In this document: positions 2,068 through 21,723 of the stretch, piece by piece
Layout of the letters: each line of letters opens with the position of its first letter
How positions within the stretch are numbered: the stretch's first letter is position 1
DNA from: a virus
Length of the DNA stretch: 24,398 nt
Virus record (IMG/VR): IMGVR_UViG_3300031658_000120
Span: 1 to 24,398 of that record
Direction: 5' to 3' (one strand)
Position numbers and translations under genes: made by a program
Notes under the pieces: model-generated
Database searches by the model: none
What the model saw: the letters and a program-made list of their open reading frames with translations, nothing else
Told to the model about the DNA's origin: nothing

Positions 2068-2413
2068 TTATCTCTATTTGAAAGTTAGTTGGCATACCCT
2101 CTGCTCCAGTTATTTCTTGTCGCTCTATGTAGCCTCTGTTTTTTCCTTTAGTCTTTAAGAAAAATATAGTTGCAGTTGTATTTCCGCTTTGGATCTGTTC
2201 GTGTAATTTGCTCTCAGCAAAGTCTAATGCTATATTCTCTATGTCTTCAACCTCTCTTTTAAAATCGCTATCTTCATTAAGCCACTTATAGTATGTGCTT
2301 CTTGGTGTTTCAGACTTCTTACAAGCCACAGTAACTACACCCAAGCTTTGCTCTAATGCTTTTAATAATGATTCCTTTTTTATGTGTCTACTTTTGTCTA
2401 TTGTATTATTCAT
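2042..2413 (-). CDS. terS: Terminase small subunit
   Basis: The 123-residue protein has an N-terminal helix-turn-helix (about residues 14-46: KESLLKALEQSLGVVTVAC and then TPRSTYYKWLNED), a helical middle with an FAESKLHEQI segment, and ATIFFLKTKGKNRGY. That last segment is typical of terminase small subunits in which a C-terminal arm follows the oligomerisation helices. It would recognise the packaging site and load TerL. The ATG overlaps the stop of the ParB-like gene upstream by 8 bases, and it overlaps terL downstream. Position and motif together make the call firm. Confidence 0.93.
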   Translation of the reverse strand: MNNTIDKSRHIKKESLLKALEQSLGVVTVACKKSETPRSTYYKWLNEDSDFKREVEDIENIALDFAESKLHEQIQSGNTTATIFFLKTKGKNRGYIERQEITGAEGMPTNFQIEIIDSIKNKD

Positions 2414-3047
2414 TATATTTCTTTTTTAATAAAATTTGTTTCTTTGTTTCCCAAGACCTATTATATTCTACATTGCTAAATAGCTTAGAAAAACCAGTTA
2501 TATGTTTTAGCTTTAAAAGTTCCTCTGCAGACATTCCTATCTCGTTGCATATGTCTTTATCTAGCCAGCCGTTTTCTAGCATACTAAAAACCATACTTGA
2601 CATACCAGTAACGCTATGCATACCTCTTGCCCTATTGTGTCTTACGGTACTTGCCATTCTGTCGTTTATATCCTTTTCAATAACAACGATAGGAATATAC
2701 CCTTTGTTTCTGTCTAGTATGTCTGGGTTTGTTTTAGCCGTGTAATACCTATGAAAGCCATCTACTATTACATACATCTTCATCTCTTCATCTCGTATTG
2801 TTACGATAGGTTGTGTATATCCATCGTGTTTTATTGACGTGTATAAAAGACCCATTTCTTTTTTAGCTACACTATTGGGGTTGTAGTCATTAGGCGTAAC
2901 CTCATCGATAGGCACCCATTTAACTCTATTAACTGGCTGACTATTTAAAGGAGAAATTTCGTGCATTAGTTGTTTAATGTCTTCTATGTTTTTTATAACA
3001 TCTCCATTGCTAAGTTCTTTTATTAGTATCTCTTTTATATTTTTCAT
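2406..3047 (-). CDS. ParB/IbrB-like nuclease-domain protein
   Basis: A 213-residue protein with a ParB N-terminal-type domain. Landmarks are NDYNPN (53-58), a helix ending in SIKHDGYTQPIVT (71-83), IVDGFHRYY (94-102) and RHNRARG (136-142). This set matches the IbrB branch, in which a ParB-like domain protein is encoded beside a PAPS-reductase-like IbrA, and here the IbrA-like gene is immediately upstream with a TAATG overlap. ParB domains of this type bind nucleotide (CTP) or DNA, and some act as nucleases. The C-terminal half is a helical domain with GMSAEELLKLKHITG, probably DNA-binding. What the pair does in phages is not established. A role in DNA modification or host regulation is inference. 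Confidence 0.88.
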   Translation of the reverse strand: MKNIKEILIKELSNGDVIKNIEDIKQLMHEISPLNSQPVNRVKWVPIDEVTPNDYNPNSVAKKEMGLLYTSIKHDGYTQPIVTIRDEEMKMYVIVDGFHRYYTAKTNPDILDRNKGYIPIVVIEKDINDRMASTVRHNRARGMHSVTGMSSMVFSMLENGWLDKDICNEIGMSAEELLKLKHITGFSKLFSNVEYNRSWETKKQILLKKKYNE

Positions 3048-4219
3048 TACAATAGGTCTTTTATGTATTTATTATATTTTCTGTTTATCTCTATGTTTGA
3101 GTCATCTATTTTATTATCTACATACTTTTTAACTGTATTAAAGTGCTGGCTAGTAGTAAAATTTATAAGTTTTGTAAAGTCCCAGTCACTAGATAAAATT
3201 GTATTTATTATCGTCTTGTAGAAGTCTGTCTTTATTAAATCATTTATAATGTATTTGTCATTTCTATTAATATGTTTAGTTACATTTTTCTTGTATTCAT
3301 CTTTAGGTATTAAATTTTCAAACAAATGCATTGCGTATTCTTGCCAATCATTAAACATATACGGCAATTCTTTTGGACACTTAAATGCATCGCTCTTTAA
3401 ATGCTTTATTGCATTACTGCCAGCAACCCTTGTACTAATTTTATTCCAAGTAACTGGCTCAATCTCTTGCACTAAAAGTAAGTTTTGTATTGACGTTTCG
3501 TGATGTAAATTAGAAATTCTCATATCTCTTGTGTTTACTCCGTGCTTATACATCTCATCGTAAATCTTACAATACTCTATATTGTTATCATATATGTATT
3601 TCCATATATCACTTATTTCCCAGTCGTATATTGGATAAAAAGTATAGTGACCTAGTTTCTCATTTAACTTCTTGCCCCAAGTTATATCCTTATATGTTAA
3701 TGCACTTGTCAGACTCATTAATCTTTTAGGTGCTTCTTGAGTTCTAACTCCAGCAAGGTAACAAGTTTTTTTGTCCTTAAAATCTACTTTAAATATTGCA
3801 CCAAATAAATCGTGAAATCTATCTGTCCCATATATATTTTCTTTAATACTTATAGGGTCTTTTTTATGAAGCCATTGATTTTCTTTTTTTATATCCCAGC
3901 AATACGAATATCTTTCTTTGCTAGACGCGTTGTTAGTTATTACTATTGGCATCTGAAACCACAAAGGCTCAACTCTGTCATCGTACATTATCTTTTTAAC
4001 ATAATCAATAGTGCCTTGCCACTCTGCTTCTTGGTCTATAAACAAAACCTTTAAAGGAAGCCTATTTCTTTTTTCTGCTATCTCAAGTGCAAGATGTAAT
4101 GTAACAGTACTATCTTTACCACCCGAGAAACCAACGACTATCTCTTCAAATTCATCAAAAAGATTTTCCATTCTTTTAATGGATGCATCATACACACTTA
4201 TGTTACTATAAAATTTCAT
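3047..4219 (-). CDS. PAPS-reductase-family protein, IbrA-like
   Basis: The 390-residue protein starts with an adenine-nucleotide alpha-hydrolase (PP-loop) domain whose SGGKDS motif is at residues 32-37. FIDQEAEWQGT, LAGVRTQEAPKR and FYPIYDWEISDIWKYI follow, as in PAPS reductases and DndC-like proteins. The part after about residue 230 (MRISNLHHE and the VTWNKISTRVAGSNAI region) resembles the C-terminal extension of IbrA (DUF3440). The family activates a substrate with ATP or PAPS, and in some members transfers sulfur. No Cys-rich iron-sulfur motif like that of DndC is obvious. It overlaps the glycosyltransferase-like gene as ATGA and the IbrB-like gene as TAATG, so the three are co-translated. 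Confidence 0.88.
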   Translation of the reverse strand: MKFYSNISVYDASIKRMENLFDEFEEIVVGFSGGKDSTVTLHLALEIAEKRNRLPLKVLFIDQEAEWQGTIDYVKKIMYDDRVEPLWFQMPIVITNNASSKERYSYCWDIKKENQWLHKKDPISIKENIYGTDRFHDLFGAIFKVDFKDKKTCYLAGVRTQEAPKRLMSLTSALTYKDITWGKKLNEKLGHYTFYPIYDWEISDIWKYIYDNNIEYCKIYDEMYKHGVNTRDMRISNLHHETSIQNLLLVQEIEPVTWNKISTRVAGSNAIKHLKSDAFKCPKELPYMFNDWQEYAMHLFENLIPKDEYKKNVTKHINRNDKYIINDLIKTDFYKTIINTILSSDWDFTKLINFTTSQHFNTVKKYVDNKIDDSNIEINRKYNKYIKDLL

Positions 4220-4797
4220 ATTGTAAAAAATTCTTTATTAAAAAATAAACCTTTTCTGTTGTTTGGATTGTTCGCGTTGCCAATCTCACTTTTAATTGTT
4301 AGGTTGTGTTGAACAAGGCTAGGTATATGACAAAAGGCTTTTATTTTTCTTTTCTTACAAACGTCACCGACAAACGTATCATCGTATTTTGTTTGCCTTG
4401 AAGCGTCAACCTCTTCTTTTAATATCTCAACAAATCTTTTACTAAAAACAACCCCTTGCATCATTAGAAATGGATTCAGCCTAACAATTGTTTCGCCTCT
4501 CGCGTGCGCCTCTTTGTTTGCTTTTCTTGGATTTGCATACAAACTTAAAATATCAATTTTTTCTCTTACCATTATTTGCTCTAAGTAATCTAAATTTTCG
4601 TGAAGATTATCTGTAATAATTATATCATCTTGTAAGTGAAGCCTATAATTCTCAAAAGGTATGTCTAGCATCTCTTTAAATGAATTAAAACACCCAGTGT
4701 AATTTTCATCAACGTGATAAATTATATCTTTAAAATCTTTAAAAATTCCTTTGGCATACTCTAGCCTACTTGGAACGCATTGAATCGTTGTTTTCAT
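4216..4797 (-). CDS. Putative GT-A-fold glycosyltransferase
   Basis: A 193-residue protein with features of small phage glycosyltransferases of the GT-A type: an early strand, the LHLQDDIIIT segment (53-62) as the metal-binding DxD-like site, SLYANPRK (85-92), a MMQGVVFSKRFV segment (112-123), and YDDTFVGDVC (138-147) as the likely acceptor/base region. HIPSLVQHN and SEIGN near the C-terminus fit the same fold. It would transfer a sugar from a nucleotide-sugar to DNA or a surface glycan; the substrate is unknown. ATGA overlaps on both sides tie it to the GNAT and IbrA-like genes. At fewer than 200 residues it is short, so a partial or streamlined fold is possible. Confidence 0.72.
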   Translation of the reverse strand: MKTTIQCVPSRLEYAKGIFKDFKDIIYHVDENYTGCFNSFKEMLDIPFENYRLHLQDDIIITDNLHENLDYLEQIMVREKIDILSLYANPRKANKEAHARGETIVRLNPFLMMQGVVFSKRFVEILKEEVDASRQTKYDDTFVGDVCKKRKIKAFCHIPSLVQHNLTIKSEIGNANNPNNRKGLFFNKEFFTI

Positions 4798-5234
4798 AAT
4801 TCATATTTTATCTTAGTAATTCCATTTTTATACTTTGCTATTTCTTTTGCTCCTATACTTAAATGAACACCAGTTGCCATTTTAGTTGTATTTGCAGACA
4901 CTTCTTTAATGCTGGGCATATTCTTTTTAAGGAATTGCAATCTGTATAGTGTAAGTTTTTTTAACAAACCTTGTCTTCTATATTCTTTTATAACATAAGC
5001 ACACTTTAAAACCGCGCTACTTGTCCCAATCTTTAAACCAAAAAAAGCAATAGGAGTCTTTTTGTTAAACACTACAAAAAACAATATGCTATCAATAAAC
5101 AGTAGACCCTCTTTTTTAGATCTGTTTACTAAATCTGGACATATAGAATTTATATTATATGTGGTTTCAATTCTTATCAAACTTTTGCTCTGTTTATTAT
5201 TCGAGTAGTTTCTAAAGGGTTGCCCATTGTCCAA
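4794..5234 (-). CDS. GNAT-like N-acetyltransferase
   Basis: The core has a strand ending in CAYVIKEYRRQGLLKKL, which fits motif A of the GNAT fold (Q/R-x-x-G-x-G/A acetyl-CoA binding, here RRQGLL). A helix follows, then a strand-like KEVSANTTKMATGVHLS segment and a final IAKYKNGITKIKYEL strand. GNAT enzymes move an acetyl group from acetyl-CoA to an amine. The ATG at 5234 overlaps the upstream gene by 58 bases, much more than its neighbours do. A TTG at 5180, overlapping that gene's stop as TTGA, would give a 128-residue protein starting LIRIETTYN and is a credible alternative. The target is unknown; in this cassette a modified base or glycan is possible. Confidence 0.75.
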   Translation of the reverse strand: MDNGQPFRNYSNNKQSKSLIRIETTYNINSICPDLVNRSKKEGLLFIDSILFFVVFNKKTPIAFFGLKIGTSSAVLKCAYVIKEYRRQGLLKKLTLYRLQFLKKNMPSIKEVSANTTKMATGVHLSIGAKEIAKYKNGITKIKYEL

Positions 5235-5452
5235 TACTTATAACCATTTAAATACAAGTATGTAAATTCTTTTTTGTGAAATTTTTCTTTTACTCCGTTA
5301 TTTCTAATGTAAACAACAATGTCTTTAAAGAGCTTTTCACTATGCCACTCATTTTTCTCAGACCATTCGTGTGGTATCGATGCCATAGTCTTAGCAAATG
5401 TAAATTGTGTTTTCCATAAAATCATTGTTACGGCTGCGCGAGTTAAATTCAT
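5177..5452 (-). CDS. Conserved phage protein with YWTMG/INRA motif (91 aa)
   Basis: The 91-residue protein contains HEWSEKNEWHSEKLFKDIVVY and ends in YLYLNGYKYWTMGNPLETTRIINRA. The combination of a Y-x-YW-x-MG turn and a terminal INRA, from memory, accompanies phage cassettes that encode small transferases and ParB proteins. It may be a separate domain that works with the GNAT protein whose gene overlaps its 3' end. There is no membrane segment or metal site. Its TAATG overlap with the ParB gene upstream supports the start. Function is unknown. Confidence 0.7.
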   Translation of the reverse strand: MNLTRAAVTMILWKTQFTFAKTMASIPHEWSEKNEWHSEKLFKDIVVYIRNNGVKEKFHKKEFTYLYLNGYKYWTMGNPLETTRIINRAKV

Positions 5453-5994
5453 TAGTTTTTATCGATATTAAATTCGTGAAAACATTTAGGACAAATACAT
5501 TCTATAAACTCTCTTGTCTTTTCATAATTTCTCTCATTAATTTCTAACTTCTTTTTCTCATAGTCATCGTCTGTCATTTGCTTGTAGGAGCTTTCGGGAT
5601 TTATGTTTGGGTTAAAATCATCTAAGTTAGGATTCCATACGTCCATACCCCAGTCTTGTAATTTTTCAGTGTCCCATACATTACCAAGCGTGTCCCAATC
5701 CCATTCTCCAAAACTAGAATTGTCTTTTATCATAAATTCTTTTTGTTGCTCCTTAGTTAGGCTCGTGGCTTTTATTATATGCAACTCTTTTATACCAACT
5801 TCCTTACAAGCTCTTAGCCTCATATTACCACCCAAAACAAACATATCTTTGTCAACTACAATAGGTCTTATGCTCAGCATCTCTGGAAAATCTTTTATGC
5901 TCTGTACAAGTTTTTTAAATTTTTCGTTTTTAATTACTCTTGGATTGTCTGGGTTTTCTTTTAACTCAGAGATATTTACCTTAGTTGTTTTCAT
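5452..5994 (-). CDS. ParB-domain protein with C-terminal Cys cluster
   Basis: A 180-residue protein whose first 90 residues form a ParB N-terminal domain: NPDNPR (14-19), a helix, IRPIVVDKDMFVLGGNMRLRA (42-62) and then GIKELHIIKA. Residues 91-118 (DNSSFGEWDWDTLGNVW) are the stretch that follows this domain in phage ParB-like nuclease/methylase-associated proteins. The C-terminus has C-x-C-x2-C (Cys166, Cys168, Cys171), which could be half of a zinc ribbon. It is the second ParB-type protein in the operon and differs clearly from the IbrB-like one. ATGA and TAATG overlaps link it to both neighbours. It may guide the downstream transferases to DNA, which is inference. Confidence 0.85.
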   Translation of the reverse strand: MKTTKVNISELKENPDNPRVIKNEKFKKLVQSIKDFPEMLSIRPIVVDKDMFVLGGNMRLRACKEVGIKELHIIKATSLTKEQQKEFMIKDNSSFGEWDWDTLGNVWDTEKLQDWGMDVWNPNLDDFNPNINPESSYKQMTDDDYEKKKLEINERNYEKTREFIECICPKCFHEFNIDKN

Positions 5995-8085: not shown

Positions 8086-8109
8086 TGTTATCTGTTTTAA
8101 ATGATTAAT

Positions 8110-8220
8110 AAAAAAAAAGCGAGCCGTAAAGTTGCTGAATCTTCCGAGGTATCAAACTCGACTCTTCGCTTACGTGGGACTTTTATCTTGAGGACTGCTC
8201 CGATACCCCGACTCGCTGGT
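8110..8220 (-). ncRNA. Structured leader or small RNA ending in a terminator
   Basis: About 110 bases lie between promoter P2 and the first gene of its operon with no ORF. The expected transcript starts near 8220. Its 5' AGCGAGTCG (8217-8209) pairs with CGGCTCGCT (8126-8118) over nine base pairs with one G-U, and eight Us follow at once (8117-8110). Inside this closing stem a second nine-pair helix joins 8207-8199 (GGTATCGGA) to 8156-8148 (TTTGATACC) with two G-U pairs. A further AAGCGA at about 8171-8166 could compete for the terminator arm. It may be a free small RNA or a transcription attenuator for the operon ahead of terS/terL. No known riboswitch, tRNA or ribozyme signature was recognised. 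Confidence 0.7.
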
Positions 8221-8223
8221 CTT

Positions 8224-8268
8224 TAAAGATACGACTTTTTATACTTATAAACAAATATTTAATAACTT
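8224..8268 (-). promoter_or_regulatory. Promoter P2, Bacteroidetes type
   Basis: Minus strand: TTTG (8255-8252), 20-base spacer ending in GTCG, then TATCTTTA (8231-8224). This is a close fit to the Bacteroidetes -33/-7 consensus. The upstream AAGTTATTAAATA flank and TTTATAAGTAT inside the spacer are shared with P1 and P3. The predicted start is at the first bases of the structured RNA. Confidence 0.85.
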
Positions 8269-12306: not shown

Positions 12307-12342
12307 TAAAGATACGAAAAATAATACTTATAAACAAATATT
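12307..12342 (-). promoter_or_regulatory. Promoter P3, Bacteroidetes type
   Basis: Minus strand: TTTG (12338-12335), 20-base spacer, TATCTTTA (12314-12307). The spacer begins TTTATAAGTAT and ends TCG as in promoter P2. It starts five bases after the terminator of the NinG gene, so the recombination/replication operon is newly initiated here. Confidence 0.85.
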
Positions 12343-15601: not shown

Positions 15602-17755
15602 TTAGTATGCACCTCTTCTTGGCATATTAATAGGTGCGGTTTCAGAATCTTTTGTGCCTCTTGGAGTTTTAAGATAACTTTCTGGTATTGTTCTAGTTTT
15701 TTTGTAATTATCTAAATTATCTGACGGCTCTGTATTTGTTTCTAGTCTATATAAAACACGCACCCATTTATGTCTGCAGTAAATACCGCCTTTAAACTTA
15801 AATAAATCATACGGCTTGCCTTTATGACCTAGCCTATCATTTACACCATCTCTAGACGCAGAATCAATACCCTCTAGTCTGTAAACAACACCGCTTTTTG
15901 ATAACCTCATCATATTACTACAAAACTCTCTTGATTCGTTGCCGTCTTCCATAGGCTTCCTAGAGCCTACTGCATACTTGTATCTTATTTTATAATTTTT
16001 AGAGTCTAAATAACTAAAGCCATTTGGGTTTGAATATATTTCATCTGCAAATTTTCTAAAGAAAGACTTTTTTTCTTTAATACATAGGTTTGCCCAATCT
16101 TCATTGCTTATGTCTTCATCAGTATTAATTTCATCTACTAGAAGCCATTCATCTCCAATAGTTTCGCCTTTTAGTTTTTCTAATATCTCAGCACCCATCT
16201 CGTCTGACAAAAATTCTTTGTTTAATGGTACACAATTCGGCACTTCCTTTCCATTTTTCTTTTTTGTACCTATCTGCTCATAGCCGTCCCAGCAAGGAGA
16301 TTTAAGTTCTTCGTGAGATACACAAGGCATATACCAAGTCTTGCCATCCTCTTCGTGTTCGTGATAACTTTCACAACCAATTGCTTTTGCTATTGCGATA
16401 GCCTCTTCTTTTGTTTCGTATGCGAGTTTTCCGTCAACCTCCTTTAAACTAATAGTTGACATCTTACTTTTTATATAGCCACATATTTTTTCAGCAGCCT
16501 CCGCTCCATATTCTTTTGTTTGCTCAGCAATACATTCGTCCCAAGGGTACTCTTCAAGACTAAACTTCTGCATTTCAACACCAGTTTCTTCTTCAATAGT
16601 TTCTTTGTCTTGTATTGTTTGGTCTACTTCTGTAAATTCAAGCGGTTGTAAGGTAGTAAAGTATAGGTTTAAGCTGATTTCATTGTAAGCTAGTATTTGG
16701 TCAAAAGAATCTATTAAAAGTTCTTGAAAAGGTCTTATAACGGTGTTATCCATTAACAAAGATGCAGTCTTAATTTCGTCTGCATTATTACCTAGTCCAG
16801 AGCCGTCCTTAATTCCTAAAAGCATAGGCGAAACTATCCTATGAGCAACCATTATTTTTGATGTACTCTCTTCTGACAAAAATTGATACTGACTATGAGC
16901 ATCACTTAATTGCACTGGTGTTATTTCTGCTTGGCTTTCTTTATTGTCATTAAAAGCTAGTATAAATTTACCAGCATTGCTTGTTCCAGAAAACTTTTGT
17001 GCAATCTTAGTTTCAATTAATTGTCGCTCTTGCTGGTTTGGTGTTCCGTTGTTAAAATTAATTAACATACTAGGTGCTAAACCATTTAAAATATTGTTGA
17101 GGTGGAAATTAGACACTTCCTCTTCTAATTCTGCGTACTGTAAACCACCTTGGTAATCTACTGGCGAGTAGTAATAGAAACCACTCTTGTATGGTTTGAT
17201 ATAATATATCTCGATGTTTTCTTTTGACATACCAAAAGCTGGTATTCTTAAAGGGTCATCACTTTTTTTAATATTTGGCCAATCATTAAAATAGTAGTAT
17301 GCTGGCACGTTGCCGTCTTCATCACATTTTTCGGCTCGTAAAGTTTCAATAGGCATATGCTCTAATTGCACTATCTTTGACCGATCTTTTGAATATATAA
17401 CTTGGATAGCACACTGACCCATAAGTTTAAGGTCATAAGAGCATCTTCTAACAACATCTTTTCTAAACAACGCAATCATCTGTGCATACTCGTTTGGTTT
17501 TCTGCTACTATCGGTAGCATTTAAACCTTTACCATAAATAGCTTGTGATATTCCATTTATAGCTGCGTTATTAGTAGGACTCCCATTATATCTGTCAATA
17601 AGATATTGAAAATAGTTGTTATCTTCGCCATACTCAATCCAGTCCTTACCATTAACTTCTTTAATCTCTGGAGATGTATATGTACTAAGATTTACAAAGC
17701 CAAACTCTGAAACCTTTGTCTTACTAAATTGCCCTTTACTGTTCCTTTTTTTCAT
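15602..17755 (-). CDS. Portal protein with long C-terminal fusion (717 aa)
   Basis: The N-terminal part, about residues 1-395, is a phage portal: IEYGEDNNYFQYLIDRYNGS, PTNNAAINGISQAIYGKGL, MAHRIVSP-type and LGLGNNADEIKTA-type segments (here APSMLINFNN and SGLGNNADEIKTASLL). It forms the dodecameric ring for DNA entry. The fusion follows: a WDECIAEQTKEYG...ICGYIKSK block (404-431), a Cys/His-bearing segment, GYEQIGTKKKNGKEVPNCVP (491-510), and a C-terminal domain (587-675) with RYKYAVGSRKP, SREFCSNMMRLS and GGIYCRHKWVRVLY. Similar modules occur from memory beside portals and prohead proteins of Bacteroidetes phages. At 717 residues it is far longer than most portals. Its ATG overlaps the 129-aa gene as ATGA. 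Confidence 0.85.
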   Translation of the reverse strand: MKKRNSKGQFSKTKVSEFGFVNLSTYTSPEIKEVNGKDWIEYGEDNNYFQYLIDRYNGSPTNNAAINGISQAIYGKGLNATDSSRKPNEYAQMIALFRKDVVRRCSYDLKLMGQCAIQVIYSKDRSKIVQLEHMPIETLRAEKCDEDGNVPAYYYFNDWPNIKKSDDPLRIPAFGMSKENIEIYYIKPYKSGFYYYSPVDYQGGLQYAELEEEVSNFHLNNILNGLAPSMLINFNNGTPNQQERQLIETKIAQKFSGTSNAGKFILAFNDNKESQAEITPVQLSDAHSQYQFLSEESTSKIMVAHRIVSPMLLGIKDGSGLGNNADEIKTASLLMDNTVIRPFQELLIDSFDQILAYNEISLNLYFTTLQPLEFTEVDQTIQDKETIEEETGVEMQKFSLEEYPWDECIAEQTKEYGAEAAEKICGYIKSKMSTISLKEVDGKLAYETKEEAIAIAKAIGCESYHEHEEDGKTWYMPCVSHEELKSPCWDGYEQIGTKKKNGKEVPNCVPLNKEFLSDEMGAEILEKLKGETIGDEWLLVDEINTDEDISNEDWANLCIKEKKSFFRKFADEIYSNPNGFSYLDSKNYKIRYKYAVGSRKPMEDGNESREFCSNMMRLSKSGVVYRLEGIDSASRDGVNDRLGHKGKPYDLFKFKGGIYCRHKWVRVLYRLETNTEPSDNLDNYKKTRTIPESYLKTPRGTKDSETAPINMPRRGAY

Positions 17756-18141
17756 ATTACAATATAATCGTTGTTAAAGCCGTTATACTCATCGTATTGA
17801 CCTTTGTTTAATTCGTAATGGTCTTGTGTGTTAAGTATTATTGCATCTTTTTGTGCCGTACAGAAAATTCTATCTTTATATATTACATTAGTTTTTAATG
17901 GGTCAGAGAAAATAGTCATATCATAAAAGTGCCCCTCTACCATATTTGTATAAGTGCTATTATATACAAAAAACTTATCTCTTATAATTTCAATATTACC
18001 TACACCACCAATTCTTGGCACTAAAGCATAGTCTACAACTACATTCGTGCTATCATCTCTAATAGTCATAAAAGCAGTAGTAACATACTCTCTAGGTATG
18101 CAAGTAAATTTATTTCCAGCTTGTGGTTTAAATAATATCAT
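17752..18141 (-). CDS. Putative virion structural protein (129 aa)
   Basis: The protein looks beta-rich (REYVTTAFMTIRDDSTNVVV, NIEIIRDKFFVYNSTYTN and EGHFYDMTIFSDPL), with IYKDRIFCTAQ and YELNKGQYDEYNGFNNDYIVI at the end. Proteins of this look are found, from memory, beside portals or in tails of Bacteroidetes phages; the exact role is unknown. It could be a connector or a minor tail protein. Its ATG is the final triplet of one of the three late-promoter-like elements, so it probably begins the portal transcript. Confidence 0.6.
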   Translation of the reverse strand: MILFKPQAGNKFTCIPREYVTTAFMTIRDDSTNVVVDYALVPRIGGVGNIEIIRDKFFVYNSTYTNMVEGHFYDMTIFSDPLKTNVIYKDRIFCTAQKDAIILNTQDHYELNKGQYDEYNGFNNDYIVI

Positions 18142-18174
18142 ATATATATAACGACAATTTACAGATTATTTACA
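18139..18174 (-). promoter_or_regulatory. Late-promoter-like element, copy 1 (portal unit)
   Basis: GTAAATA (18173-18167), 12 bases, then TCGTTATATATATATG (18154-18139), of which the last three are the start codon of the 129-aa gene. Sequence and spacing equal those at 20452-20488 and 21687-21723. The terminator of the previous gene lies about 10 bases upstream. Confidence 0.75.
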
Positions 18175-18183
18175 TATTAAAAC

Positions 18184-18218
18184 AAAAAAAAAGGGCATCT
18201 AACAAAAGAAACCCTTTT
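18184..18218 (-). terminator. Terminator after the tail-tube gene
   Basis: AAAAGGG (18218-18212) pairs with CCCTTTT (18195-18189); three inner pairs (TCT/AGA type) extend it. A long U-run follows (18188-18184 and beyond). It ends the tail-tube transcript just before the portal-unit late element. Confidence 0.72.
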
Positions 18219-18237
18219 AATATATAGTAAAAAAATA

Positions 18238-18786
18238 CTAGTTTGGTATAATGACATTTGCATCATCAACAGTTGGACCAACTTGACCAGCTCCAAATTC
18301 TAAAAATAAAGGTGCAGTTTCTTCCATACCCTCAAAGGTAAGTGTAAAACCAGATAAATCTCCAGCCGCTGCTCCAGTAACTATAGTTCCACCAGTAACT
18401 TCCATTCCATTCTCAATACCACAACCAAAGAAATTACCGTAGTAATCCTCAACAATTACATAAGGTCTTGCAACCGCAACAGTCTGTAATTCTGCCTGAG
18501 TACAAGGGTCAAGATATGTTAATGTTAGATTTAAAGTTTGAGTATAAAATGTAGTACCATTTTCTCTTGAAGATGTTACAGTAGTCTCAAGACTTGAGTT
18601 TCCTTTTACTTGATATCTAAGCCATTTTTCTGATGCTCCAGCAAAATAAACCAAGAGACTCTCACAAGATTCAGTATTATAAGTAACTTTATCAATGTCT
18701 CCAAAGTCTTTCAAGTACACATTTTTTATACCACCAAAGGCACTTTTACAAGGTAGTTTCCTACCAGAATTTAATAAACAAGGCAT
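18238..18786 (-). CDS. Major tail (tube) protein candidate
   Basis: The 182-residue protein is beta-rich with GDIDKVTYNTESCESLLVYF, VTSSRENGTTFYTQTLNLTL, CTQAELQTVAVARPYVIVED and GDLSGFTLTFEGMEETAPLF. The SGFTLTFEG-MEE ending is typical of phage tail-tube or major tail proteins, in which the final strand carries the F-x-G-x-E. Length fits that class. It is a single-gene unit between two terminators, as expected for a highly expressed structural protein. Tube assignment is inferred from composition, length and its place beside the capsid gene. Confidence 0.65.
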   Translation of the reverse strand: MPCLLNSGRKLPCKSAFGGIKNVYLKDFGDIDKVTYNTESCESLLVYFAGASEKWLRYQVKGNSSLETTVTSSRENGTTFYTQTLNLTLTYLDPCTQAELQTVAVARPYVIVEDYYGNFFGCGIENGMEVTGGTIVTGAAAGDLSGFTLTFEGMEETAPLFLEFGAGQVGPTVDDANVIIPN

Positions 18787-18802
18787 ATGCTTTTTTGTTT
18801 TA

Positions 18803-18839
18803 TAAAAAAAAGGGTACGCAGATATATTCTACATACCCC
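18803..18839 (-). terminator. Terminator after the major capsid gene
   Basis: GGGTATGTAGA (18838-18828) pairs with TCTGCGTACCC (18822-18812) over 11 positions with two G-U pairs, a five-base loop and eight Us (18811-18804). It limits transcription from the capsid gene into the tail-tube gene. No separate promoter was seen for the latter. Confidence 0.85.
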
Positions 18840-18860
18840 TTTAATTGATTAATTAATTGA

Positions 18861-19835
18861 TTATGCGTATTCTACAAGGTCAGAAGCAATTCCAAATTGT
18901 ACTGCACTTGTAAATCTCATTACCATTCTTACGTTGTTCGATGCATCCAAATCTCCCATATCTAACACGCGTACTTCTTGAGTAGAATTTAGTAACCCAG
19001 TTCCAAAGTATAGGTTGCTACGTTGTGCTACATACATTTTGTCAGCTCCTAAGCCTGGACAAACAAATATCTTCACTCCATTTACAGTAAGACTTCCGTT
19101 GTTCCACCATTGCGTACCCATATTAGCAACACCATTTGCTCCTAAACCATTAGCTGCAAAACCTCCTAGTGCTTGTACATATAATTTAGCTGCCTCTTGT
19201 CCAACGTATATAAATAAATCTTCTTTACCATAAAGTGCTGCTGGAATTGCATCTACAACTCTTCCAAGTTCAGTAATAATGTTAGCTGCCGTTAATGCTA
19301 CCGCTGCTACTTGTTGTCCAGCTGGAATGTCCCCAGCCGCTGCAGAAGCTGCGATTAGTTTTTGAAAACCATCGAATGAATTGTTAGTTGCGGCTGCAGT
19401 ATCTCCTTGCCAAATACATAGTTCAGTATTCTGAGCCACTTCGGCACTAACGTGTGCAATCATAAAGTCAGAAAACTTTGGTGGTAAAGTTTGACCTAAA
19501 CCGAATCCCATAGATTGTGCCTCCCAGTCGTTCACGAAATCATACTTACATAGTTGTAAGTTTACTTGCAGTTCTTTAGGCTCAATAATTCTTTCAGTTA
19601 ATGTGATAGTAGACGTTGGGTCAAAATCACAAGAAGCTGGCTTTACTAAAGCATCAGTTGCAAGTTTCTTAATTACTTCTTTAAAAGCAATATTTGCCTT
19701 TACTGTTAAACCGCCATCATCAATTGTTGATGCAGACAATAAAGCCGCTGCGATATATTCGCCAGCAAATTCTCCAGCATAAGTTGTCGTGATGTTAGTC
19801 GTTGTTCCCGCTAAATTTACGTTTCTTTTTTTCAT
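18861..19835 (-). CDS. Major capsid protein
   Basis: The 324-residue protein builds the icosahedral shell. It begins with a basic, beta-prone MKKRNVNLAGTTT, then has an Ala-rich helix region, RIIEPKELQVNLQLCKYDFV, DWEAQSMGFGLGQTLPP, and PAALYGKEDLFIYVGQEAAK. It ends with GVKIFVCPGLGADKMYVAQ and SAVQFGIASDLVEYA, all in line with HK97-fold capsid proteins of Bacteroidetes phages. Codons are rich in Ala/Gly with fewer rare patterns than the neighbours, as expected for the most abundant protein. It starts two bases after the scaffold-like gene and is followed by a strong terminator. Confidence 0.88.
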   Translation of the reverse strand: MKKRNVNLAGTTTNITTTYAGEFAGEYIAAALLSASTIDDGGLTVKANIAFKEVIKKLATDALVKPASCDFDPTSTITLTERIIEPKELQVNLQLCKYDFVNDWEAQSMGFGLGQTLPPKFSDFMIAHVSAEVAQNTELCIWQGDTAAATNNSFDGFQKLIAASAAAGDIPAGQQVAAVALTAANIITELGRVVDAIPAALYGKEDLFIYVGQEAAKLYVQALGGFAANGLGANGVANMGTQWWNNGSLTVNGVKIFVCPGLGADKMYVAQRSNLYFGTGLLNSTQEVRVLDMGDLDASNNVRMVMRFTSAVQFGIASDLVEYA

Positions 19836-19836
19836 T

Positions 19837-20454
19837 TTATTTATTTAATTTGTTTAGTACTCTATCTAGTGTTGTTGTAAATTGTCCTTTACCAAATTGC
19901 ACTTGTGTTTTTTGTGCAGTCTTTGCTTCTGGATTGTGTCTTATTGGTTTGCTTGAAGCAGACATCTCTTCTTTTTTCTTTTCGTCTTTTTCTTTGTCCT
20001 CGTATTTTTTCATATCTCCAAACTTCTTTTTAAGTTCTTCAATCTCAGATTTTACTTCTTCAATTACTGGAGAAATAACATCAACAACGGCTTCTATAAT
20101 TGCCTCAATTTCTGTAGCAACCTCTGCTGGTACTTCTGTTTCGATTGTTTCGTCTAGGTCTTCTGTTTCTTCTTTTTCTGATTCAGCCTCTTCTTTTGCT
20201 GGCACATCGTCTGAAACATCTCTAAGGTCTGCAATTACACCCTCTTCTTCAACAACTAAAAGTCTGCCGTCTTCGAGTATGTATTCTCCTACTGGCATAG
20301 CAACCTTTTCATCGTCTGTCATAATAAACACTTCATTACCTTTAGAAAACTCATCTGCACTAATTGTAGTGCCGTTCTCTAAATTTTGCTCTTCAAGTTT
20401 TACCTTCAAGTTTAAAAGTGTTCTAATTTCATTTAGCATTTTTGTATTTTTCAT
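19837..20454 (-). CDS. Scaffold-like acidic coiled-coil protein
   Basis: The 205-residue protein has a beta-like front (KVAMPVGEYILEDGRLLVVE), a long acidic/Ala-rich segment (ESEKEETEDLDETIETEV and PAEVATEIEAIIEAVVDVI), a lysine-rich coiled-coil (VKSEIEELKKKFGDMKKYE) and a basic end (TLDRVLNKLNK). Acidic, helical, charged and placed directly before the capsid gene, it fits a scaffolding protein that guides shell assembly. Its basic C-terminus would contact the capsid. A late-promoter-like element ends at its ATG. It is not similar to known scaffolds by sequence that I can name. Confidence 0.68.
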   Translation of the reverse strand: MKNTKMLNEIRTLLNLKVKLEEQNLENGTTISADEFSKGNEVFIMTDDEKVAMPVGEYILEDGRLLVVEEEGVIADLRDVSDDVPAKEEAESEKEETEDLDETIETEVPAEVATEIEAIIEAVVDVISPVIEEVKSEIEELKKKFGDMKKYEDKEKDEKKKEEMSASSKPIRHNPEAKTAQKTQVQFGKGQFTTTLDRVLNKLNK

Positions 20455-20488
20455 ATATATATAACGATTATTAATTTATTATTTACGT
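20452..20488 (-). promoter_or_regulatory. Late-promoter-like element, copy 2 (scaffold-capsid unit)
   Basis: GTAAATA (20486-20480), 12 bases, then TCGTTATATATATATG (20467-20452), the last three bases being the scaffold start codon. It is identical in core and spacing to the other two copies. It lies after the 53-aa gene, so it starts the scaffold and capsid transcript. Confidence 0.77.
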
Positions 20489-20493
20489 TTTCA

Positions 20494-20655
20494 TTATGTT
20501 TTTGTTATTACTCCGATGCCTTGCGCTATCATCGAGCCGTCACAACATTCGCTTGAATAGGTGTCTTTATCTGCGCATAGACAACCTCTGCCACCTCCGT
20601 CTGGAGATGTTCGGCTGGGTATAAAAGTTTTATTATTTTTGTTATTCCTTTGCAT
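20494..20655 (-). CDS. 53-aa Cys-rich protein with CLC...CCDGS motif
   Basis: The ORF starts with ATG at 20655, overlapping the stop of the 147-aa gene as TAATG, and fills a gap that would otherwise be empty. The protein reads GGGRGCLCADKDTYSSECCD followed by GSMIAQGIGVI. The C-x-C-x9-CC-D-G then A-Q-G-I-G pattern recurs from memory in short virion-region ORFs of Bacteroidetes phages. Four cysteines could bind zinc or form disulfides. It may be a small decoration or assembly protein; the function is unknown. Confidence 0.75.
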   Translation of the reverse strand: MQRNNKNNKTFIPSRTSPDGGGRGCLCADKDTYSSECCDGSMIAQGIGVITKT

Positions 20656-21098
20656 TACATTGATGCTATTTTATCTGCACTTTCTTTTTCGCCTCTATAA
20701 TTTTCTACAAACATTCTCACTTCATCTTCAAAATTTTTAATATCTTCAAATTGACTTTCTAACTCTGAAAATTCTTTTACTGTATTAGGGTCTACTCCTA
20801 AAGCTTCTGCGTTTGTAGCAAAGTCATCTAAAATTTCCTTAACAGTTTCAGAAGCATTAGAATCATAAAAGTCAGCTACTATTGAATCATATTCTTCTAC
20901 AAAAGCATCTGCGCTAATTTTTGCTTCATCTAAATAACTTTCAAAGAGTCTTGCAGAATTTATTGCATTAGATAGTTCATCAAGGTTTTGCCTATTTATT
21001 CCTAAAAAATTGGTTGCATATTTAATCTCTTCTACAGAGCTAAGACTTGTTTTTTGGTTTGGTAATTTATTGTAAACTGTATTTAATCTTGTTTTCAT
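20655..21098 (-). CDS. Helical protein upstream of scaffold (147 aa)
   Basis: The protein is acidic and predominantly helical: QNLDELSNAINSARLFESYL, DAFVEEYDSIVADFY, TVKEILDDFATNAEALGV, and ESQFEDIKNFEDEVRMFVEN. It has no recognised domain. Its position between the prohead protease and the scaffold-like gene suggests a head-assembly role, perhaps a second scaffold subunit or a protease partner. It starts six bases after the protease gene and is coupled to the 53-aa gene. Confidence 0.7.
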   Translation of the reverse strand: MKTRLNTVYNKLPNQKTSLSSVEEIKYATNFLGINRQNLDELSNAINSARLFESYLDEAKISADAFVEEYDSIVADFYDSNASETVKEILDDFATNAEALGVDPNTVKEFSELESQFEDIKNFEDEVRMFVENYRGEKESADKIASM

Positions 21099-21104
21099 AG
21101 TTGT

Positions 21105-21689
21105 TTATTTTATTATTTGTTTAATTTGACTTAGTAGTTGTTCAGCCATATCTTCGCTGATTTTATCTTTTGGTGCTTCCATTTTATCTGCAAAGTAGCC
21201 CTCGATTGAAAAGCCTTTTACTTTTTTAGTTTTTACAAACTCATTCCAAACCTCATCGTTATTCACTTTAACAGACCCCATCCAAGTTCCCAAAGGTACG
21301 TCCAATCCGTATAATGCAGACTTGTCTTTTTCTTTATCTTCTACTAGCCAGCTTTCAACTAAGGTTAAACCATTAAGTACCTCTGAGTGTTCTAAGGTAG
21401 AGTTGCTTTGATTGCCGTTCTGTAAAAATAGTTGTGATGCCTTACATATCGTTTCTTTGGAGAAATAAATGTAATACTCACCCTCTTCGCCTTGTCTATA
21501 TATTGGTTTATTAGGTATCAATAATGCCCCCATTAAGATTTTTTTCTCTTTGTCAACCTCTGCGAGTTTTATCTCTTGGTTTTTTAAAGCTACAAAATCA
21601 CTCTCTATTGCTGGACTTTCAACTATTGATATTGCTTCAACACCAGTTTCAAAATCCTCTTCATCTAAAATTAGTTCAATAATTTTCAT
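21105..21689 (-). CDS. Prohead serine protease, XkdF-like
   Basis: The 194-residue protein matches the XkdF-like protease group that matures proheads. It has an ETGVEAISIVESPAIESDFV strand region, ILMGALLIPNKPIYR, the catalytic-type His in TLEHSEVLNG (His101), and the nucleophile region VKGFSIEGYF (Ser161). VESWLVEDKEK and LGTWMGSVKV lie between them. The C-terminal helix (SEDMAEQLLSQIKQIIK) could bind scaffold. A late-promoter-like element ends at its ATG. It lies upstream of scaffold and capsid genes, its usual partners. Confidence 0.85.
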   Translation of the reverse strand: MKIIELILDEEDFETGVEAISIVESPAIESDFVALKNQEIKLAEVDKEKKILMGALLIPNKPIYRQGEEGEYYIYFSKETICKASQLFLQNGNQSNSTLEHSEVLNGLTLVESWLVEDKEKDKSALYGLDVPLGTWMGSVKVNNDEVWNEFVKTKKVKGFSIEGYFADKMEAPKDKISEDMAEQLLSQIKQIIK

Positions 21690-21723
21690 ATATATATAAC
21701 GACTTTTTTAATTGTATTTACGT
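21687..21723 (-). promoter_or_regulatory. Late-promoter-like element, copy 3 (protease unit)
   Basis: GTAAATA (21721-21715), 12 bases, then TCGTTATATATATATG (21702-21687), the last three bases being the protease start codon. It fits in the 42-base gap after the tape-measure gene. Core and spacing equal those of the two other copies. Confidence 0.77.

Follow-up and report, generated by a model that had tools for sequence, protein, structure and literature searches.

A probable late promoter element abutting the start codons of virion operons in marine flavobacterial phages, likely read by a phage ECF-type sigma factor

Three virion genes in the window (the whole 24,398-nucleotide stretch of viral DNA analysed, IMG/VR record IMGVR_UViG_3300031658_000120) are each preceded by an identical two-block element that runs into the start codon, and related forms stand before the same operons in more than 100 related contigs and in the cultured Nonlabens phage P12024S. 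These elements are likely to be late promoters that are read by the phage's own ECF-type sigma factor and that give rise to leaderless or nearly leaderless virion mRNAs. The GTAAATA block would be the -35 box, contacted by sigma domain 4, and TCGTTAT (W-CG[T/A]TATA in relatives) would be an ECF-type -10 box, opened by sigma domain 2, with RNA synthesis beginning 12 bases past the C of CGT. The sigma factor, for which the sigma-like protein of Table 1 is the candidate, would be made early from a host-type promoter and would then steer the core RNA polymerase of the host towards the virion operons. We infer the sigma-DNA binding, the exact start base, the early sigma, the late timing and the leaderless translation.

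The late elements of the window

A search of the whole window with GTAAATA-N12-TCGTTATATATATATG returned three perfect matches, all on the minus strand (Table 1), with no fourth even at three mismatches and none in 100 dinucleotide shuffles of the window. The initial annotation had described three exact copies, each closing with the start codon of a virion gene, with 12-base spacers that differ in sequence, and had proposed a genome-wide count; the copies and the differing spacers are confirmed, the count is exactly three, and only the end of the last copy needs correction, from 21723 to 21721. Its suggestion that TATATA may act as the -10 element is rejected, because the conserved, invariant part is CG[T/A]TATA. 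The -10-like core is CGTTAT, whose C stands at -12 when counted from the inferred start. The TATATATA run seen in the window clade is not kept in other relatives.

Table 1. Positions of late elements, genes, terminator and early promoters in the window
Feature	Position	Strand	Remarks
Late element 1	18139-18173	minus	GTAAATA 18167-18173 (-35-like), TCGTTAT 18148-18154 (-10-like)
ATG of late element 1	18139-18141	minus	Start of 129-aa gene; inferred transcript start 18141
Late element 2	20452-20486	minus	GTAAATA 20480-20486, TCGTTAT 20461-20467
ATG of late element 2	20452-20454	minus	Start of scaffold-like gene, upstream of MCP-like gene
Late element 3	21687-21721	minus	GTAAATA 21715-21721, TCGTTAT 21696-21702
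ATG of late element 3	21687-21689	minus	Start of protease gene
129-aa gene	17752-18141	minus	First gene of portal operon
Portal protein gene	15602-17755	minus	PHROG portal, E 2.8e-96; downstream of element 1
Scaffold-like gene	19837-20454	minus	Matches C-terminal part of phrog_24921; downstream of element 2
Probable major capsid protein gene	18861-19835	minus	phrog_11320 (function unknown); scaffold operon
Head maturation protease gene	21105-21689	minus	Pfam Peptidase_S78_2, E 1.4e-12; downstream of element 3
Intrinsic terminator hairpin	18180-18230	minus	Immediately precedes element 1
Phage sigma-like gene, 168 aa	9432-9938	minus	Sigma2-like ~1-80, flexible linker, sigma4-like ~106-168
Host-type early promoter	12312-12338	minus	TTTGTTTATAAGTATTATTTTTCGTAT then CTTTA; upstream of block containing sigma gene
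Second host-type early promoter	8229-8255	minus	
Third host-type early promoter	860-886	minus	

The genes downstream of the elements encode virion proteins. Homologues of the 129-aa gene lie directly upstream of the portal gene in relatives, and the probable major capsid protein (MCP) is named from its position and size. The label "scaffold" used in the initial annotation fits, in that phrog_24921 is matched in its C-terminal part by the scaffold-like protein and in its N-terminal part by the protease. These two matched halves (19837-21689) suggest that protease and scaffold are fused in other phages and split in the window. A 182-aa gene (18238-18786) lies between two terminator-like hairpins (18842-18808 and ~18230-18180) and is not preceded by a late element; it may therefore be expressed by read-through from the capsid operon.

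The terminator upstream of element 1 folds at -15.1 kcal/mol over 18176-18240 (z -4.1), and equivalent hairpins precede the element in relatives. This arrangement bears on the possibility that the element is not a promoter but a translation signal, namely an AT-rich ribosome-binding element. The element does abut the ATG, and Bacteroidetes do not use Shine-Dalgarno sequences (PMC9723704), but it is found in front of only three of the approximately 44 window genes, its upstream block keeps a rigid distance of 19 bases, and the copy at the 129-aa gene comes directly after a terminator. On these three grounds the translation signal was rejected as barely conceivable.

Conservation in related phages

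The exact window pattern is present in only 11 stretches in IMG/VR, all of them near relatives, and the first impression was that the element is specific to the window clade. This was overturned by a wider comparison based on the portal protein. Portal relatives were detected in more than 590 IMG/VR stretches, of which 80 were kept, most at 60-87% identity, and the regions upstream of their 129-aa-gene homologues were aligned, revealing a wider form of the element. Nearly all of about 64 portal relatives have TTTACAAATT-N12-ACGTTATATAAGTA-ATG or a close form upstream of the 129-aa homologue, usually directly after a terminator hairpin. Across relatives the element takes the form [CT]AAA, 14 bases, WCG[T/A]TATA, with -35 boxes such as ACAAAT, GCAAAA or TAAAA compared with GTAAATA in the window.

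The operons headed by the element are those of the protease, the scaffold and MCP, the 129-aa gene and portal, and a 216-aa tail-region gene, and almost all large contigs have sites before these four genes. The 216-aa gene falls outside the window, some 7 kb upstream of the protease, but is present in the closely related contig G018, where a fourth GTAAATA-type copy precedes it, just past the window's edge. The spacing of the two blocks is strikingly rigid: in 183 of 304 sites from the fetched loci, [GA][CT]AAA lies exactly 19 bases before the W of WCGTTATA, compared with two sites at a spacing of 18 and three at 20. When 42 records were searched whole, 37 carried the bipartite pattern (1-5 sites each), for a total of 118 sites; the reversed pattern gave 9. 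All but one of the bipartite sites lay on the dominant (coding) strand of their own record. With the ATG correctly placed, 26 sequences contained 72 sites, compared with 0-1 in ten dinucleotide shuffles.

Among cultured phages, tblastn searches with window and P12024S proteins matched only P12024S/L. The P12024S portal is 38% identical to that of the window over 68% of the query, and the phage carries a variant, AAACAAA-N14-CGTTAATA, before seven late-region genes (gp01, gp05, gp08, gp35, gp41, gp44 and gp45); the copies at gp01, gp35 and gp41 deviate slightly from it, and gp05 is the 129-aa homologue. The CGTTATA pattern has no match in P12024S or in contigs G036 and G037, all three of which carry variants. 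The initial annotation had named absence of the element before the same genes in relatives as evidence against its proposal of a late promoter defining this phage group; the element is present there, and the comparative evidence supports the proposal.

In five contigs (G001, G003, G012, G016 and G031), ParB-like or TerS-like genes are also preceded by late-type sites, and in some of these the ATG is at offset 11, 17 or 20. This suggests that some members of the group have an additional late operon devoted to packaging.

Predicted start point and leader length

The position of the ATG was analysed in 95 dereplicated sites, with the offset counted as the number of bases from W to ATG. The offset is 13 in 56 sites, 14 in 18, 15-17 in 17 and below 13 in two; in P12024S it is 13 in six of the seven sites and 12 in the other. 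For the 19 sites with the ATG at 15 or beyond, the letters at the start step are not forced by the ATG, and a pyrimidine-purine step is nevertheless found at 12/13 in 16 of them, compared with one each at 11/12 and 13/14. Because the 10/11 step is also raised (11/19), this evidence for the start step is suggestive and not decisive. Taking position 13 as +1 places the C of CGT at -12, and for each of the three window elements the inferred start base is then the A of its ATG, so that their mRNAs would be leaderless; in relatives, 5' leaders of 0-4 nt are predicted. The leaderless or near-leaderless transcripts suggested in the initial annotation are thus supported by the spacing between -10 box and ATG and by the kept start step.

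A late promoter with a conventional, longer leader, either because the start lies further upstream or because the annotated ATG is not the initiator, seems very improbable. Start codons are predictions, but the ATG lies 13-17 bases from the -10 box in four non-homologous genes and across many divergent phages, and this range is cut off sharply at the predicted start; the start step is kept at 12/13 even where the ATG is further on, and the distance from -10 box to ATG leaves no room for a leader. The rarity of leaderless mRNAs in the host phylum does count against the preferred explanation of leaderless late messages: they make up 5.5% of mRNAs in Flavobacterium psychrophilum (PMC9723704), and 3.7% of 5' UTRs in Bacteroides thetaiotaomicron are shorter than 10 nt (PMC7366714). 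A broader idea, which we put forward tentatively and consider somewhat doubtful, is that the whole virion programme is leaderless under the phage ECF-type sigma and possibly translated in a way that bypasses host initiation control, for example by intact 70S ribosomes.

A phage-encoded candidate reader

The late elements contain a CGT-type -10 box of the ECF kind in the form CG[T/A]TATA, and the phage encodes a sigma-like protein with an ECF layout in its predicted model, namely sigma2 and sigma4 domains joined by a flexible linker, with no sigma1.1 or sigma3. The AlphaFold model (pLDDT 86, pTM 0.47) has two confident domains and a weak linker. Its top PDB fold matches are ECF sigma factors, with Foldseek E-values no better than 1.4e-3 for this pair of domains joined by a floppy linker. 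Taken separately, the predicted C-terminal domain fits region 4 of sigmaE in complex with -35 DNA (2h27; 1.6 A over 63 residues), and the predicted N-terminal domain fits SigR region 2 (1h3l; 2.1 A over 71 residues).

The window protein alone has no Pfam or PHROG sigma match, which, like the Foldseek values, counts against it as the reader. A profile of 59 homologues matches region 2 of the ECF factors SigE and SigR (E 0.007-0.01), and 27 of the 59 match Pfam Sigma70_r2 at E<0.05, the best at 1.3e-8. The P12024S homologue, gp33 (L095:20595-21071), is annotated with Sigma-70 region 2 and scores 25.2 bits against Sigma70_r2, for which the curated cut-off is 24. PHROG family 31712, which includes gp33 and is listed as of unknown function, is probably a family of phage sigma factors. 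We propose that the sigma-like protein of the window reads the late elements.

The -10 box and the sigma-like protein change together among the relatives. In G036 and G037, the sigma is 44% identical to that of the window, and the readable late sites are CGATATA rather than CGTTATA. More broadly, 39/39 sites in 12 whole contigs with the sigma clade of G036 and G037 are CGATATA, and all 34 sites in 10 whole contigs with other sigmas are CGTTATA. Sigma region 2 is 0.47 identical between the -10 clades compared with 0.65 within the CGTT group, and the corresponding values for the region 4 helix-turn-helix are 0.71 and 0.74. A divergence of region 2 without a divergence of region 4 is in line with a changed -10 box and a common -35 box. 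The window clade has GTAAATA at all four genes, contributing four of the five such sites among the 95, and its sigma has YASLVRTY in the recognition-helix region compared with YYSLYNTY in relatives; because both sigma domains of this clade differ from those of relatives, region 2 included, its -35 change cannot be assigned cleanly to region 4.

An attempt to establish that the -10 type follows the sigma rather than the head genes failed, since the trees did not discriminate between them: the CGTT/CGAT switch is a single event on the sigma, protease and portal trees, and nearly so on the MCP tree. The covariation therefore shows that all late sites of one genome share a trans-acting reader, and not specifically that this reader is the sigma.

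This reader might instead be supplied by the host, as an ECF sigma or as sigmaA acting with a phage activator, to which we assign a small chance. Several ECF sigma factors and a class of CGT-type promoters are known in flavobacteria (PMC9723704), but no enrichment of the bipartite pattern was detected in 80 Flavobacteriaceae genomes, in which the specific pattern gave six matches compared with 17 for the control, a seventh match being a phage contig. In a flavobacterial MAG that contains a relative (L415), all five matches are on the phage contig, which is possibly merely co-binned. A host regulon of this type is therefore unlikely. The covariation of sigma and -10 box, as one phylogenetic event, is compatible with a host reader, and the phage encodes other DNA-binding candidates (a DnaA-C-like protein and two ParB_N proteins); on the other side, none of the large contigs examined lacks the sigma-like gene, even among those retrieved only through their portal, and the late element lacks the sigmaA box, as described below.

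Early promoters

The three early promoters combine TTTG with a TATCTTTA-like box, the arrangement of the Bacteroidetes sigmaA promoter. The TAnnTTTG sigmaA box is absent from all three window late elements, and a sigma-70 consensus scan detected promoter-like sites at chance level. It had been noted previously that the late element lacks TTTG, which is correct, and that it shares a TCG-TAT core with the early promoters; this likeness is probably superficial, as the late element contains neither the TTTG nor the TATCTTTA-like box and has instead a CGT box of the sort seen in ECF-type promoters of flavobacteria (PMC9723704).

Two further regions may be mentioned. Directly after the second early promoter is a stretch of about 110 nt (8098-8225, minus strand) closed by GCGAGUCG/CGGCUCGC and a U-run, which is a possible phage small RNA; it has no Rfam or tRNA match, and its fold is no better than those of shuffles (z -1.17). 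A PAPS-reductase-like gene (3047-4219) adjoins one ParB_N gene (2406-3047), and the second ParB_N gene (5452-5994) is near the large terminase; the region 2406-5994 is a possible DNA-modification or sulfur-transfer cassette.

Implications

Late gene control in marine Bacteroidetes phages is essentially undescribed in the literature searched, which covered few subscription journals and contained nothing relevant on flavophage late promoters or leaderless phage late genes. For hundreds of uncultured phages, the present analysis defines a specific regulon, names a candidate reader and predicts the exact start base. It also gives PHROG family 31712 a likely function, and P12024S, as a cultured phage with the element, allows immediate testing. 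The rigid pattern is usable as a late-operon marker in metagenomic phages, and the natural sigma/promoter variant pairs (CGTT, CGAT and CGTTAA) may be used for studies of -10 recognition. The systematic joining of start site and start codon in all late operons is, to our knowledge, new. The phage group is very common, marine and flavobacterial, and leaderless messages are predicted as its rule in a phylum where they are rare (4-6% of mRNAs; PMC9723704, PMC7366714).

Comparison with known systems

Late control by a phage sigma is of a known kind, represented by phiEco32 and phage 7-11, and features of that kind are found here: a shared element before the virion operons, and a phage sigma-family protein recognised by fold and profile. 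T4 late genes are likewise driven by a phage sigma-family protein, gp55, but T4 late promoters are single-block and require the sliding clamp, whereas the window elements have two blocks. In phiEco32, promoters for gp36 precede middle and late genes, which resembles the arrangement described here, and in phiEco32-type phages sigma and promoter diverge together between relatives (PMC8948821). The phiEco32 promoters are a single block, tAATGTAtA, with starts 6-8 bp downstream (PMC8948821), in contrast to two blocks at rigid spacing with the ATG at the start.

Phage 7-11 has bipartite promoters before late genes and host-type early promoters, as seen here, and its gp47 sigma redirects the host core RNA polymerase to GTAAtg-16-aCTA promoters (PMC8948821). 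The GTAA shared with the window element is a resemblance only; the -10 box here is CGTTAT/CGATAT, the spacing and the host phylum are different, and that study reports no leaderless design for phage 7-11 (PMC8948821). In the host phylum, the ECF sigma promoters of Flavobacterium psychrophilum SM6 are recognised by a CGT -10 box (PMC9723704), but these serve host genes (type IX secretion), and the phage pattern is not enriched in flavobacterial genomes. Bacteroidetes sigmaA promoters (TTTG ... TAnnTTTG), finally, resemble the phage early promoters and differ from the late element in their TAnnTTTG box.
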